Shown: piece by piece, positions 10,377 to 43,660 of the stretch
How the letters are laid out: every line of letters starts with the position of its first letter
Position numbering within the stretch: position 1 is the first letter of the stretch
From: Sphagnum magellanicum
Taxonomy: Eukaryota > Streptophyta > Sphagnopsida > Sphagnales > Sphagnaceae
Direction: 5' to 3'
DNA: 64,000 nucleotides
NCBI GenBank assembly: GCA_021904315.1
Contig: CM038923.1
Span: 558,001 to 622,000 of the forward strand
Translations under genes and position numbers: made by a program
Notes under the pieces: model-generated
Seen by the model: the letters and a program-made list of their open reading frames with translations, nothing else
Database searches by the model: none
Told to the model about the DNA's origin: nothing

Positions 10377-12031
10377 ATGGGTGTTTTGAAGAAGGAGCTG
10401 TAGAGGAGGCGGAAGACTTTTGAGCAGGAATTTGGTGGGAGGAAGTTTGTGAGAAGGTCGGAGATAGAGCAGCGGGCATTGGAGAGGAAGAGGGAGGAGG
10501 AAAAGAGGGAGCTGCAAAAGAAATCCATCAGAAAAAGAGTGGCTGGAGGAGTCGGCGATGGTTATGATGTTCTTGCAAACTCCTCAGATGCATCTTCATT
10601 ACCAGGAGCGACGTCAAAAGCAAAAGCGTCGTCATTGAAGGTCAGGGAGAATGTAAGCGATGAGGAAAAGATTGACGAGATGGTGTTGCCTAAGGCGGAG
10701 GTTATACGGAGACTCAGTTATTTGAAGCATCCTATCACGTTGTTCGGAGAGGGTGATGATGCTAGACAATCGAGGCTGAAAGCTTTGCTCAAGGCCGGAG
10801 TTACGGATCCCGATAGCGAGCTGATGGAGGGCCAGAGGAACGACTTCTTGGTCGACATGGCGGAGCTGCGCAAACGGGAGAAGCACGGCCGATTGGAACC
10901 TCGGAAAGAGAAGAAGAGAAAGATGCAGCGGCTGCGGAGGACGGAGACAAGGATGGCGGTGGGGGTGGAGAACAGATTGTCAATGGTGATGGGGGCATCT
11001 CATCCGGTGTCGACAACGACAAGGACATGAAGGTAGGAATCAGACGTTTCTTTGTTTTGTTTTTTCCTAGGGTTTCTAGGGTTTTCTAGGGTTTTCAGAT
11101 GGTGTCTGACCATACATAAATGGTGGCATTTTTTGTTGTGTGTTGTCTGTTTTTGAGCAGAGGTTAAAGAGCAACTTTGAGGAGCTTTGTGATGAGGACA
11201 AGATTCTAGTTTTCTTCAAGCGGTTGCTGCAGGAGCTGGAGGACCGATGAGAAGGAGAGAAGCGAACTGGTCGTGGAAAGTCCAGTGTAGCCACCTTCAA
11301 GCAGTGTGCAAGATATCTGAAACCTCATTTTAAGATGTGTCGAAAGAAGGTACACACATGCAAACTTTCACTCTGTAGTGTCATAAGGGGTTGTTTATGG
11401 TCTCTTCTGAATAAGATATTAGTGTTGGCATCTCTTAGTCCAGGTGGATTACAAGAGTATTGACTCTTCTTGTTTAGCATGTCTTCTCAGAGTGGGCAGT
11501 GGCTCCACCCAGGTGAACTGTGAGTGGACATGAAGCAACATCTGAAGGAGGCCATAAGGAGGAGGATTTGTGGCACATTTGTTGAAACCTTTTTGGTTGG
11601 ATTATGCAGATGCTTCCAGATGATATTCAGGTGGTGCTAATGATAGTGGTGAAGTGCTGTATGGAGTGAGATTACATGACAGCTATGGACCAATACATCA
11701 AACTTGCTATTGGTAATGCACCTTGGCCGATTGGAGTGACCATGGTGGGTATCCACAAGCATTCTGCTCATGAGAAGATTTATACCTACAGTGTTGCACA
11801 TATCATGAATGATGAAACAACAAGGAAGTACCTACAGTCGATCAAGAGATTAATGACAGTTTGCCAACAGTGGTATCCCTCCATGCCATCAAGTCTGTTG
11901 AGTTTAGTAGCCTTGCTAATATGAGTGACCTTCATTCCCTACTGCTTGAGGAATCTGTCAAGACTGGTAGCCATGCTGCTAAAGAGCGGTTGCTTCTCAT
12001 GGCTGCTAAGGAGGACAATGAAAATCCTTAG
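10377..12031 (+). pseudogene. PRP18: PRP18 pre-mRNA splicing factor pseudogene, introns retained
   Basis: PRP18 is a U5 snRNP-associated factor for the second step of splicing. Three exons can be joined: 10377-11032, 11161-11349 and 11610-12031. The N-terminal part has KFVRRSEIEQRALERKREEE, then the PRP4/PRP18 motif VLPKAEVIRRLSYLKHPITL, FGEGDDARQSRLKALLK and NDFLVDMAELRKREKHG. The C-terminal Prp18 domain has [58 protein letters not shown] and [19 protein letters not shown]. It is broken by TAG at 10401 (codon 9), a frameshift near 10.91 kb, TGA at 11248 with neighbouring residues missing, TGA at 11667, and a frameshift near 11.89 kb, after which the frame reads [18 protein letters not shown] to a stop at 12029. 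Because introns with GT/AG ends remain, this is a DNA-level copy and not a retrocopy. Confidence 0.88.
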
Positions 12032-35368: not shown

Positions 35369-35704
35369 GAATTGGGGTAGAGAAAGTTGACAACAACTAA
35401 CTCATGCAAAAAGCAAACCACTTTGTTGAGGGACATTTGGAGTTGAAATCTATGAAATTTCTTATTAATTTTGCAACTTCACCATGGAATTGTGAGAGTG
35501 AATTCAAAAGAAGGAAAACCAATTTAGAGGCCACCCACCAACTTTGTTTTGTGCAAAACCCATTTTTTCATTGTTTATGTGGAGTCACTCTTCTCTACAA
35601 AAGTTCCAAAGTTCTTGACTGGAAGTGTGTCAAAAGTCTCATTAAATGGGGGTCCTATTAAACCCAAAACATAAAACCATAATAAGCTGGTGCTCTCTAC
35701 CAAT

Positions 35705-36012
35705 TCATCTGCAAAAGTTAGCAGACCGGAAACTAAGGGCATACATGAAGGAGTTAGCATATTGGAACTCCACGATACTGCCTTGTGCAAGAGGGCGACC
35801 ACCATTCACAAGACAGTCATTATAAGCAAGGCGAATGAAGGTATTTGGGTTGGGAGGTGGCGACGATGCAAACCAGCCACAGTAGACATGGATGTTTGTA
35901 GGCGCACAATCTGATATGCATGTGTTCACTATCTGAACACTGTACTGAGGAATGCCTGCTGCAGAGCCGAGTTGGCTCTGCGTTATGCTAATGTCTTTGT
36001 TTGTACACCCAT
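35705..36012 (-). CDS. Second TPD1 cysteine-domain exon (distal alternative terminal exon, or truncated tandem paralogue)
   Basis: A second complete six-cysteine TPD1 domain of 101 residues lies 321 bp downstream of the stop of the first copy. It starts after a TTGCAG acceptor and opens with the same two bases (AT) and phase 1 as the proximal exon, reading GCTNKDISITQSQ, GIPQYSVQIVNTC, CGWFASS, NDCLVNGGRPLAQG and ending SANFCR. The bases before both acceptors are also alike (AATAATGA, then a G/T-rich run), so the duplication included intron sequence. I see no signal-peptide exon or arginine-rich exon between the two copies. It can therefore be used only by splicing from the upstream exons, or it is a truncated duplicate. 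No stop or frameshift interrupts it, and all six cysteines are kept, which suggests selection. Confidence 0.75.
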
Positions 36013-36193
36013 CTGCAATACCCACAATCCACATAACTCATTATTTCACTCCTGACATTCAATCCTTGGAAACTATGCTATACCGTGCCTCCCCTCCCAG
36101 CTCCTCCTTCAACCCTACACCCACTTGTATCACAAAATTCAGAATACATGTGGGGAATATTCAGAATAATAAATCCAGAAAATAGAAAAATCT

Positions 36194-36218
36194 CACACAC
36201 ACACACACACACACACAA
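36194..36218. repeat. (CA)n microsatellite between the two TPD1 exons
   Basis: About 12 CA steps, just past the poly(A) signal of the proximal exon. Confidence 0.9.
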
Positions 36219-36246
36219 GTAAGTCAATGGGCAACATATTTACAGC

Positions 36247-36252
36247 TTTATT
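36247..36252 (-). promoter_or_regulatory. Poly(A) signal after the proximal TPD1-like exon
   Basis: AATAAA on the minus strand, about 80 bases beyond the stop at 36333. It would end the transcript before the distal exon, so choice of terminal exon could depend on use of this site. Confidence 0.5.
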
Positions 36253-36332
36253 ACTAAATCACAGTTAGGGGGATTCTGAATCTTGAGGTCAAAACTGGGG
36301 CGGTGGTGGGTGTGAAGGGTTTGTAACGGAGT

Positions 36333-39300
36333 CTAACAAAAGCTTGCAGACTTGAATCGCATGGGATACATGAACGAGTTTGCATACTCGAAGCGGATGA
36401 TTTCACCTTGACTAAGGGGTCGACCTCCATTAACTAGGCAGTCATTGAAGGCAATGCGGCTAAAGATGTTGGGATTGACCAACAGGGCTGAAGCAAACCA
36501 GCCACAGTAAACATGAATGTCTGATGGGGCACATTCAGACATGCATGTGTTCACTATTTGCACAATGTACTGCGGGATGCCTGAGAAGCCAACTTGACCC
36601 TGAAATATGCTAACATCTTTGTTTGTGCACACTTGATCTGCAACAAATACCCCCACAAAACCCAAATCATTATTGCTCAATTTATTTATTATGCATCCCT
36701 TAGTGATGATGATTTTTCTTTCTTATATCTAACATTTGTGTTTGAACCTTCTTGGGCAGCAGCTCTTTTACAACTTTACAAGCCCAAAAGTTCGGGGCAA
36801 AGGGTGTGGTGGTGGTGGTGGTCTGCATGCTCGACTGGAGTGAAGAGCTAGCTTGTAGCCCAGGGTATGTTATGTTCTATGGAGAACAATAGGACGAGGG
36901 AAAGGAGTGGACAAACTTACTGGGGGCTAACATCCGGCGATTCCTGAATCTTCTCCTTGTGGCCTTTTTGTGTTGTGCCAGAGGTGTCTCATTTAGACTT
37001 GGTGACAATTCCATGGATGATGACTTTGGACTGCCCTTCAACTCTGTTAAAGACACAACAATAACAGTTTGTAACAAAACACGTGAAATTCGATGAAATA
37101 TATCTTCTAAAACCCCCTTCTTCAAGCAAAAGAAAACACCAAATGTACAATGATACAAAGGATAATAACGACCCAGAAAGGAAAACAAGAATACTTTGAT
37201 ATTGATATAAATTAATAGGATCTTCAGTAATCCCAATTAAACATAATTTATTTAACCAATTAAACCCAATTTAAGCAACAAGGACTCCATGAAATAATCA
37301 CCCAATTAAACCCAATTTACCTAACAAAAACTGCATCAAAGGTTGGATTGCCACCCATTGATTCATATCAGCAAATCCAGTCCCAGAAAAGCTACAAATA
37401 ATTCCTAAAATCATTTTACTTAACCGGAAATTACTAGAAAGAACAGAAACCTACCATAAAACAGAAGCTACTAATAAAAATTTAAAAATCACTCGCTTAC
37501 TGGGAATTACTGGAAAAAACAGGGAAGATACTATACCAAAAAAAGTTGGTTAATTAATTAATTAACTACTTCATGACAGGAAAAGAGGTTTTGGGGTCTT
37601 TCAAAAACCAAGAAAAAACACAAAAATCAGGGCGAAAAAAGAAAGAAAGAAAAAAAAGCCAAAATCTCATATGAAAATCACACAAGTGGAGATGATGATG
37701 ATCATCTCTCCATCCAAAACAAAAAAAGCATGAAGTAAAAAGTGGCAGTGAAATCACTACAACACTTCAAAGGTTCACACTAACTGGACTAATGATTGTT
37801 TCACAAAGCTGTGATACAACAACAACCAGCAGACTTTGTTTTTGTACAGATGATACTTGCGCAATCATGAAACAACCATGATTTTAACTGCACCGCATTG
37901 AGTGCCCACTACATGAAATAAATAATTTTTTTGTCTACGGGCATATTTTATTTTATTTTATTTTATTTTCCAGTATATTTTCATACATATTTCTCATTTT
38001 CACATGTTCCTGGACCATAAAATTTGTAAAATTACTACACTGTATTTTCCAGAATACAATTTCTTGTATATTTTCATGTTCCCTACCCATAAATTTTGCC
38101 AAAATAATACATGCTATATATATATATATATATATATATACTCTTTTTACCTTTCGGGAGTAAGTTCCAAAAATTGAAATTACAGAACAGAGATTTCAAA
38201 GAATCACCCCAACTTGACCCCCAGTTAAATCTAACTCGACCTCAGTCATTAGCTATTACTCCTCCTCACATCTTGCTGCTGCTTCACAGGGTGAATTATG
38301 CAAAAATATTACACTGTAAATGGTTTTTACATTATTTTTTTTACCTTTTTACTTTCAGGGAGTTCCAAAACTGAATTACAAAGAGAGATTTCAAAGAAAC
38401 ACCCCAAACTGATCCCGGTTACCCAAATGATCCCCAGTTAACTAAACTGATCCCCAGTAAGTCAAACTCGACCCCAGTTAGTACTCACCTGAGCTTGCTG
38501 CTGCTGCTCCTTCTTCTTGCTCTTGTTCTGCCGTTGCTGCTGTTTTGCGCTGCTGCAGCTCCGCCGCTGTCGCTGCTGCTGCTGCCGCTGGTGTTTCTCG
38601 CTGCAGCTCAGCTCCATTGGCTACTGCTGAGATACTCCATGTTGCTGCTGTTGTTGTGCAACTATCTCCAGTTTCTTTGGATGATGAGTGAAAACCATGA
38701 TCCCCAGCTTCACCTTCCATTAAACCTGCATGCACCCACAAAAGCCCAATGCCGGGTTGGTGCAAAACTTGCAGCAATCTAGCTAGCTCTCTTCAAAGAC
38801 TCAACCCAAACAAAAACACAAACAAACAAACTCACCCATGTCAAATAAAAAATCTTATGACATTGTAATGACGATGATGATGATGCTGCTGCTGAAATTC
38901 TTATACTCGTCATGCAGCTTTGCATCAATTGCTTCCAGATTGTATTAGGGGAATTGGGTCGAGAGAAGGCGTGCAGGAGAACTCGATCATACATTTGTAA
39001 GGAAGGAAGCAAATCGACATGAGCAGAGTCCATCGTAACAAAAAAATTTGGAGTTAGAGTGCTTCTTACACTGCATCATGCAAAGAAGAGAGCCTGAGAG
39101 AGAAGAGGCTCAGGTGGGTGGCTATGGAACAGTGTTCAAAACTTGGTGAAGATTTGGAAGAGAATTAAGAACTCTTGTGTATGAGAATTCATGGACTGCA
39201 AGGATCTGGGATACCTGTTTGAGAGGAGAGACAGGCAGAGGTGGTGAAGATTTCGAGTGTGTTGCAGGTGAGCAAGATCATGCACATGAGTAGAAAGGAG

Positions 39301-39410
39301 CCTTGAACCCGCTGCTGGTGCCGCAGCATTTGTGAGAAGGAGGAGGAGACTGCAGCAGCGAAACTCATCAGCATTGTAGACTGTGAAGAAATTGAATGTA
39401 GCTGCTTCAT
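36333..39410 (-). CDS. TPD1-like secreted cysteine-rich peptide gene, four exons (proximal terminal exon)
   Basis: Coding exons read on the minus strand as 39410-39215, 38725-38489, 37043-36921 and 36637-36333, about 286 residues. Donors are GTATCC, GTGAGT and GTAAGT, acceptors end TGCAG, ACAG and TGCAG, and all three introns are phase 1, so the frame is kept throughout. Exon 1 carries a hydrophobic signal-peptide core (GSFLLMCMILLTCNTLEIF). Methionine 28 (39329) would give a more classical signal peptide than methionine 1. Exon 2 is Ala/Gln/Glu-rich low complexity. Exon 3 ends in a basic run (RRRFRNRRML). Exon 4 has the TPD1 domain with GIPQY, NTC, VYCGWFAS and NDCLVNGG and six cysteines. 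In this family TPD1 and MAC1 are secreted ligands of the LRR receptor kinase EMS1/EXS/MSP1 and control anther cell fate. The protein is longer than the roughly 180 residues usual for the family, owing to exon 2. Domain assignment is firm; exons 1-2 are my splice inference. Confidence 0.8.
38115..38140. repeat. (TA)13 microsatellite in intron 2 of the TPD1-like gene
   Basis: Uninterrupted TA run inside the 1.4-kb intron between exons 2 and 3. Confidence 0.9.
38490..38680 (-). repeat. Trinucleotide-rich coding segment in TPD1-like exon 2
   Basis: Interrupted CAG/GCA/GCT triplets (CTG-rich on the plus strand) encode runs of Ala and Gln within exon 2, such as TPAAAAAATAAELQQRKTAA. The run ends at the CAG/GTGAGT donor. 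Confidence 0.7.
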
Positions 39411-41455: not shown

Positions 41456-43660
41456 AAACCCTGGTAAACTTTATGAAACAAAGCACTGAGCAAAGGGGGA
41501 AAAGGGAGGACAAACAGAGACGAACCAAGTCCAAGCCAAAAAGCACACAAAATCGAAAGGGGGTTAAAGGGTGCAAAGGAACAAATTATGTTTCCAAAGC
41601 CCCCATCACTTGCAAGAAGCATATGAGAGAGAGAGAGAAGGAAAGGGAAGGAAGAATCCTCACTTGCAACAATAGCGCACCTCAAAATAGAGGCTGCTTG
41701 TGTTCTCTGCAAAGCTACTAACACTCTCTACCTATAGAAAGCACATAGAACCATCAAACCAAAGGAGGGCCACCAATGCCCTTAGCTAACCATACCATGT
41801 TAATGCATCGATGAAAAAAGTCATGCGCTTATTGGTGTAAGTAGCCCAAAAACCTTTATGGCAAGGGGAAGAAATGGGTTTGTTGAATGTCAATCCTGAT
41901 AGAGTCCTTCCTTTGGTTGAGGTGCCACCATTTTGGTCACCCTATGAGATGAAACAACTTGAAAGACCAAGTCTACTGGGGTGGTGTCAACTATCACCAC
42001 ATCCAACAAAATGTGAATGCCATTGGTTGATAACATGATGTAAACATGTCGATGAAAAGATTGAAGGAAAAAGGTGAAAGGACATGGGTTTGTTCACGCA
42101 AAACATGAAATCTTGTGTATTACACAATGGAGGTGAAGATATCTTGAACTGCATCATGGGATGCAATTTGTTCCCCAGCATGAGAGCAACGAAAAATTTG
42201 AGTCCTTGTAGGATCTAAGGGTTGGTCACAAATGCAATAGATCACTTTGAAAGCTAATGGATGGGATAGGTCCAACTGAGTGCACAAAACCAAAAAAAAA
42301 ACACATTAGAAGATAAATGAAAAGGTAAAATGACTGGGCGAGTGAAAAATCAAGCACCCACTCTCAAACCCACACAAGACCTAAAAAATGAAAAGATGAA
42401 ACGACTAGGTGAGCGAAAAGTCAAGCACCCACCCTTGAACCAACACAAGACCTCAAATGTGCACAATGCGAATCAAAAACCAAGTAAAAAAATATAGATT
42501 ACTACTAATAAAGTGAAACCCAATGTCAACTCAATTGGGTTTCATTCACAACCTGAGTCATAGCAAGAGCTTCCAATAGATGGTTTAATTTTTAAGAAAA
42601 ATGTAGAAGCTGAAAGGTGTGGGGTGGGGTGTATGGGTAGCAAAAACCCTAATGTCAAAATTGAAAAGAACCCTAATGATAAGCATGTTTGTTCCTTGTA
42701 TTTCTAAGCAAGATAATATGTGTATATCTCTATAGATATTGACAAGAGATGTCAAGTTAGAATTCCACAACATTTCCACATGAAAGTATGATACTTTAAG
42801 TCCAAAATCTTGTTACCCTGATTGCTATTGTGCGATTACATACATACATACATACATACATACATCATGTATGGTATAATGAATCATTATACACCCTTTC
42901 TCTGTCATACCTTCTTCTTCTCCTAAACCACCTGCCCATTGGGTGTTCCACTAGGCTTCTTCCTACTACTGCCCCTGCATAAATTTCTTTTGGTCAGTTT
43001 TATAGTTTACCTTTTTACCTTAAAGGCCAGTGGTGGTCACCCATTATTCCCACCACCCTCCTTTTTAAAGGGTTGCTTTGTTTGTTTGTTTTTAAAATTT
43101 TTAAAAAATTAACTAATTTCTTATTATTATTATTTACAATTTTTTAATTTTAATAAAAAATTTACCACTTTTACTACAAGGTCATAATTATCCTTTACCT
43201 GCCACTGAGTTGCTACTGATTGTGACTTACTAGAGTTTGGGGACTTGGTATGTACGACATCTTGATTGGGTTGGGTTTCACTTCAAGTAGCCAAATATGA
43301 AGCAATGTTTTTTCTTTTCTTTTCTTTTCTTTTCTATTGAATTTTTAAATTACAAAAATTAAAACTAAAAAATAAAATTGGGTGTTTTTTGCAACCAAAA
43401 AAAATGGGGAAATTTTGGAAATTTTGGTTTTTTCTAGCCTAAAATAAATATTAGAATTCTCTCTAGTGGGGTCCAGAAGCTTGAAGAAGGGAATGATGAT
43501 GTGGTGTGGTGGCCTCTCAAATAATTCTACCACTCAGTTTACTCATTTACCTTCAGTCATCACATCTTTGAGGACAGTCAAATCATGCAGGTAAAAAGTA
43601 AAAAAAACATAAGAGGGAAAATGAGTGAGAGAGGGAGAGAGAGAGGTCTGGACCAGTGTC
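41456..43660. other. Intergenic sequence with small duplications
   Basis: A 71-bp tandem duplication is at 42320-42461 (AAAAG(G/A)T(A/G)AAA(T/C)GACT at 42320 and 42391). (CATA)n is at 42837-42865 and (TTTTC)n at 43308-43336. Segments near 41790 and 42010 also resemble each other. Minus frames at 41334-41576 and 41446-41724 are unassigned. Confidence 0.45.

Follow-up and report, generated by a model that had tools for sequence, protein, structure and literature searches.

The analyzed window is a stretch of 64,000 nucleotides of Sphagnum magellanicum (contig C17, positions 558001 to 622000), and the genome searched with it comprises 438,994,042 bases in 31 contigs. On the minus strand of the window, three upstream exons are followed by two candidate terminal exons. 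Exon 1 (39215..39410) begins with an ATG and a hydrophobic, signal-peptide-like stretch and ends in phase 1; the first in-frame ATG was taken as the start, and an in-frame ATG at 39374 is also possible. The end of this exon, TCTCAAACWG followed directly by GT, has counterparts on contigs C16 and C19. The hydropathy maximum (Kyte-Doolittle, 9 residues, within the first 65) is 3.2 on C17, where the start codon is ambiguous, and 3.9 on C16. Exon 2 (38489..38725) codes for a low-complexity part rich in Ala, Gln, and Glu and runs from phase 1 to phase 1, and the basic exon 3 (36921..37043), with a product ending in RRMLAP, ends in phase 1 at the conserved donor GTAAGTTTGTCC and would be common to both terminal exons. 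Exon borders were derived from splice consensus and locus comparison, those of exons 1 and 2 being set by eye.

The proximal terminal exon, here termed alpha (coding part and stop, 36333..36637), and the distal one, beta (coding part and stop, 35705..36012), lie on the same strand and each code for a complete six-cysteine TPD1_C domain (PF24068), with Pfam matches of 122 bits (E 1.1e-35) and 116.8 bits (E 4.4e-34), respectively, at a cut-off of 27 bits. An earlier note on this DNA had described two intact TPD1 domains 625 bp apart that start after TTGCAG acceptors in the same phase, and these statements were confirmed to the base: the first bases of alpha and beta are 36637 and 36012, each is preceded by TTGCAG, and both exons are in frame with the single donor, the last exon base of which is 36921. 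One base is left over at this donor and completes the first codon of alpha as well as of beta, which each read A+AT..., so that the phase suits either exon. Exons 1 to 3 joined in silico to alpha or beta give uninterrupted reading frames for 286 or 287 residues. The beta exon itself codes for no signal peptide.

A search of the genome with an alpha-beta query revealed further pairs at C16:6134314-6135416 and C19:1210527-1211628, in which order and strand are kept, and, at C17:1279273, a weaker match that is unpaired. Since the layout recurs at two paralogous loci on other contigs, it is more than a chance arrangement. The region of exon 3, which served as the query for the upstream exons, matches at least three places in the genome, one per locus and each upstream of alpha, in agreement with the single set of upstream exons that had been noticed in the window; like all genome match counts of this study, the number is a lower bound. 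For the distal copy, neither a second exon 3 nor a common start was found. At the C16 locus, the joined products are likewise open and every exon end is in phase 1; exon 2 could be delimited on C17 and C16, but not on C19.

Within the genome, the family search identified at least 13 TPD1_C domains, i.e., three pairs, two single genes, and five domains in long open frames, as opposed to the one PpTPD1 (and six PpEMS1) reported for Physcomitrella in a 2019 paper (PMC6744412). The two single genes (C13:8883065 and C17:1279180) read as intron-containing and resemble the paired loci: a signal-peptide exon comes first, the exon after it ends in YRRQLSEF, and the TPD1 exon follows in phase 1, but only one terminal exon was found in them and its acceptor is of the ordinary T-rich type (G content, 0.20 and 0.15). 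The five long-frame genes (234 to 325 residues; C16:13982516, C14:14456586, C13:17679785, C17:15221711, and C19:10335036) apparently represent an intronless subfamily. Their gap between cysteines 2 and 3 is longer by one residue and that before the last cysteine by two, and their leader ends in HRKL.

For Arabidopsis TPD1, the cysteines are placed at C77, 107, 111, 120, 142, and 175 (PMC4990239), corresponding to gaps of 30-4-9-22-33, compared with 28-4-9-22-34 for alpha and 29-4-9-22-34 for beta of the window (hand counts). Judged by their domain and the spacing of its cysteines, the predicted alpha and beta products are members of the TPD1/MAC1/TDL1A family, e.g., TAPETUM DETERMINANT1 of Arabidopsis and PpTPD1 of Physcomitrella, the ligands of EMS1/MSP1. 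They share with it the TPD1_C domain, the near-identical spacing of the six cysteines, a variable N-terminal part ahead of this domain, and, going by hydropathy, probably a signal-peptide-like start; the difference is that in the moss gene one set of leader exons would serve two domain exons.

The processing of the ligands may also differ from that in Arabidopsis, where TPD1 is described as being processed near K135R136 and a version with this pair mutated fails to rescue the mutant (PMC4990239). At the equivalent positions, determined by hand as 7 and 6 residues before the fifth cysteine, the dibasic pair is replaced by S-R in all three alphas, by I-R in the beta of C17, and by T-R in the betas of C16 and C19, and the pair does not necessarily define the family. 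At all three loci, the product of exon 3 closes with RRML and two further residues, and the corresponding motifs are RRQL in the single genes and HRKL in the long-frame genes. In paired, single, and long-frame genes, the RRXL/HRKL motif is followed by the first cysteine at a distance of 4 to 10 residues. According to the same paper, RRXL is a form of the dibasic sites of RALF peptides, and its passages on Arabidopsis TPD1 examined here report no N-terminal cut beyond the signal peptide (PMC4990239). Our guess is that RRXL/HRKL might be a processing site on the N-terminal side, in contrast to K135R136 of Arabidopsis, which is C-terminal. If the precursor were cut at RRML, the mature ligand would be almost solely the product of the terminal exon.

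The three loci offer an opportunity to date the arrangement. Pairwise dS values are 0.30 to 0.40 among the alphas and 0.33 to 0.44 among the betas (three loci, about 66 sites), whereas those between alpha and beta range from 1.6 to saturated. In the tree, the betas form one clade with an ultrafast bootstrap of 99 (protein) and 100 (DNA), and the monophyly of the alphas is without support. Both the contrast of between-exon and within-exon dS and the beta clade place the exon duplication before the separation of the three loci, and on these sequence comparisons the duplication is the older event. Gene conversion between the two exons of a locus was considered and rejected, because all nine alpha-beta comparisons give dS values from 1.6 up to saturation, versus 0.30 to 0.44 within each type.

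Two whole-genome duplications dated to 189 to 247 and 102 to 122 Ma, with Ks peaks of 0.406 and 0.643, have been reported for the Sphagnum genome, whose ancestral chromosome E persists as chromosomes 16, 17, and 19 (PMC9946827). In our own reading, the larger Ks peak belongs to the older duplication. We infer that contig numbers equal chromosome numbers and that the loci on C17, C16, and C19 are ohnologs, i.e., three surviving copies from ancestral chromosome E. The long-frame TPD1_C genes, which are located on C16, C17, and C19 and on C13 and C14, match groups E and B as published and are likewise consistent with this numbering. A neighboring exon (plus strand, 10404-11030 of the window) codes for a PRP4 motif and has one other genome match, with 78 percent identity, at C16:6076052, where strand and side relative to the TPD1 locus are the same as on C17, and this shared neighbor supports the common ancestry of the two segments; the same genome search with the PRP4-motif exon gave no match on C19. 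The gene to which this exon belongs looks like PRP18, as we presume. Three surviving copies from two rounds of duplication require one older split. The observed dS of 0.30 to 0.44 fails to separate the two published Ks peaks and two ages are not visible, so that the dating relies on this three-copy logic.

The conservation of the two exons was assessed with codon models. Pairwise dN/dS ratios are 0.099 to 0.135 for the alphas and 0.078 to 0.094 for the betas, and the omega estimates from three sequences each are 0.138 and 0.096. With omega set to 1 and kappa to 2, the fit was worse by 19.8 (alpha) and 27.2 (beta) log-likelihood units, equivalent to p values of about 2e-9 and 2e-12 (calculated by hand, two degrees of freedom). 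Under these models, the putative coding parts of alpha and beta are both under strong purifying selection since the loci separated, and both accordingly look as if they are used as protein. It is hardly conceivable that beta is a dead or unused leftover of the tandem exon duplication, given the low omega among the three betas, the far poorer neutral fit, and the fact that no frameshift or early stop is present in beta at any of the three loci.

Alpha and beta have also diverged in a consistent manner. Seventeen alignment columns, one of them being an extra C-terminal Arg of beta, set all three alphas apart from all three betas. The earlier note had located the differences mainly in the loop after CGWFAS and near the C terminus; this is true of 9 of the 17 fixed columns, and the rest lie elsewhere. 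As the note suggested, the differing loops might alter receptor choice. At these 17 positions, the seven other family members are alpha-like in 7, beta-like in 4, and neither or equal in 6 cases, and the two intron-containing single genes alone are alpha-like in 10 and beta-like in none (counted by hand), so that the evidence leans toward alpha as the more conservative copy. The divergence before the duplication of the locus and the separate maintenance by selection indicate that alpha and beta probably do different jobs, possibly with different EMS1-type receptors or in different tissues.

Conserved noncoding sites were identified in a MAFFT alignment of the three loci that starts 900 bp before the alpha acceptor and extends 800 bp past the beta acceptor. 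Most of the noncoding DNA has lost its alignment between the loci, and identical noncoding runs of at least 8 bases are present only at the donor, before and at both acceptors, and in the alpha 3'UTR of this alignment. The run at the donor is AGTAAGTTTGTCC. A G-rich block, TGGGTTTTGTGGGGG, precedes the alpha acceptor (36650..36664, minus strand, as for all of the following elements; 15 of 15 bases identical at three loci), and the block AATAATGAGTTAT is located upstream of the beta acceptor (36033..36045; 13/13, three loci). The sequences preceding the two acceptors are similar, as had been noted from the window. The 20 bases before the CAG or TAG contain 35 to 65 percent G at the six alpha and beta acceptors of the three loci, and 15 to 20 percent at the small set of three exon 3 and two single-gene acceptors. 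This replacement of the pyrimidine tract by a G-rich tract suggests that the alpha and beta acceptors may be of an unusual, perhaps regulated type.

Downstream of the alpha stop, all three loci share the 3'UTR element CCAGTTTTGACCT (36286..36298; 13/13) and the block AGTAATAAAGCT (36244..36255; 12/12). The latter contains the poly(A) signal AATAAA (36252-36247) that had been seen between the copies and that is kept at all three loci. Downstream of beta, a pattern search retrieved the element TTTGTAGA[GT]AAGAGTG (35586..35601) once per locus at all three loci. It contains UGUA and may serve in 3'-end processing. Its version in C16 and C19 is UGUAGAUA, which we take to resemble a Pumilio site. 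Because this element was left unaligned by MAFFT, the alignment may miss further conserved or coding pieces.

The stretch between the alpha stop and the beta acceptor, which measures 320, 444, and 449 bp at the three loci, is also one place where a separate tandem gene might begin. In that reading, beta would be driven from a promoter of its own and would have a short, unrecognized first exon situated in this gap, in the alpha exon, or in the alpha 3'UTR. Tandem gene duplication is common, and the gap of C16 does contain an ATG frame of 59 codons with a fairly hydrophobic stretch, but this frame is without a counterpart in C17 and C19, where the longest ATG frames of the gap comprise 23 and 16 codons, respectively, and are not strongly hydrophobic. 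The gap has no identical run of at least 8 bases beyond the blocks of the alpha 3'UTR and the beta acceptor, and the acceptor and the in-phase exon start are retained at all three loci, although a one-exon gene would not need them. A separate beta gene is therefore unlikely. An in-frame ATG directly before beta in C17 (MWIVGIADGC...) was rejected as a start, since this frame is absent from C16 and C19. No common reading frame leads into the beta acceptor at the three loci, as expected for an intron.

A further route to beta would be a donor inside alpha, resulting in a protein with two TPD1 domains or with most of alpha plus beta. GT dinucleotides in phase 1 are indeed present in alpha, and that at offset 231 of the exon agrees with AGGTAAGT in 5 of 8 positions in C17 and C19, i.e., by a simple match count one below the exon 3 donor, which reaches 6/8 at all three loci. 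However, the site at offset 231 is absent from C16, no phase-1 GT scoring above 4/8 is common to the three loci, and the alpha stop, the 3'UTR blocks, and the AATAAA are all conserved. The alpha stop is found at the identical place at all three loci and thus blocks a simple two-domain protein. Taken together, use of a donor within alpha is very improbable, slightly more so than a separate beta gene. In the absence of a signal peptide, a common start, or a good alpha donor for beta, splicing from the exon 3 donor to the beta acceptor is the simple route that remains.

The locus is thus very probably one TPD1-family gene with two alternative terminal exons, which would yield two ligands behind one leader. 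The earlier proposal that two TPD1-type ligands could arise from a single gene is supported by the layout at all three loci and by the purifying selection, together with the failure to find a second exon 3 or a start common to the loci for beta. Use of the proximal acceptor together with the alpha poly(A) site would give rise to ligand alpha, and skipping of the alpha exon, with splicing from the exon 3 donor directly to the beta acceptor, would give rise to ligand beta. Such a switch would swap the whole cysteine domain, and promoter, signal peptide, and leader would stay common. We lean slightly toward a more far-reaching scenario, in which the choice of the terminal exon is regulated, has persisted for more than 100 million years and in three duplicates, and supplies two ligands from one promoter to several moss EMS1-type receptors.

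The closest parallel is the calcitonin/CGRP gene (CALCA) of vertebrates, in which alternative terminal exons with their own poly(A) sites provide two ligands, the proximal poly(A) site leading to one peptide ligand and the distal one to another (PMC7852185). All three moss loci correspondingly have one donor and two terminal exons of the same phase, and the proximal exon has its stop and the poly(A) block AGTAATAAAGCT at each of them. The moss gene differs in belonging to an unrelated protein family in another kingdom, and its two exons are clearly related by duplication, the use of both being predicted. No paper was retrieved for TPD1 with Sphagnum, and among those listed for TPD1 with moss or with alternative splicing, from a literature set that covered few subscription papers, titles and opening abstracts mention no such layout; in their passages on TPD1, a paper on anther isoforms of Chinese cabbage names TPD1 once in a gene list (PMC6880451), and one on tomato pistils mentions alternative splicing only in a reference title (PMC5500324). 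Moss PpTPD1 and PpEMS1 are reported to rescue Arabidopsis mutants, although moss is without a true tapetum (PMC6744412).

TPD1-EMS1 is an old ligand-receptor pair of land plants, and two versions of the ligand behind one long-kept switch would be a direct handle on its role in mosses. If true, the locus would moreover show clearly that a splicing choice can survive genome duplications without being split into two genes.

The structure of alpha predicted from an alignment of two rows has a mean pLDDT of 51.2, which is too low for interpretation, and among PDB sequences alpha had no match at E values of up to 1. Finally, the window harbors a dispersed repeat at 41500-42489, which accounts for 40 of the 41 matches listed for a 10-kb query of the neighboring DNA and is spread over many contigs; the result of this query, for which 39 of 3,907 candidates were scored, is dominated by the repeat.
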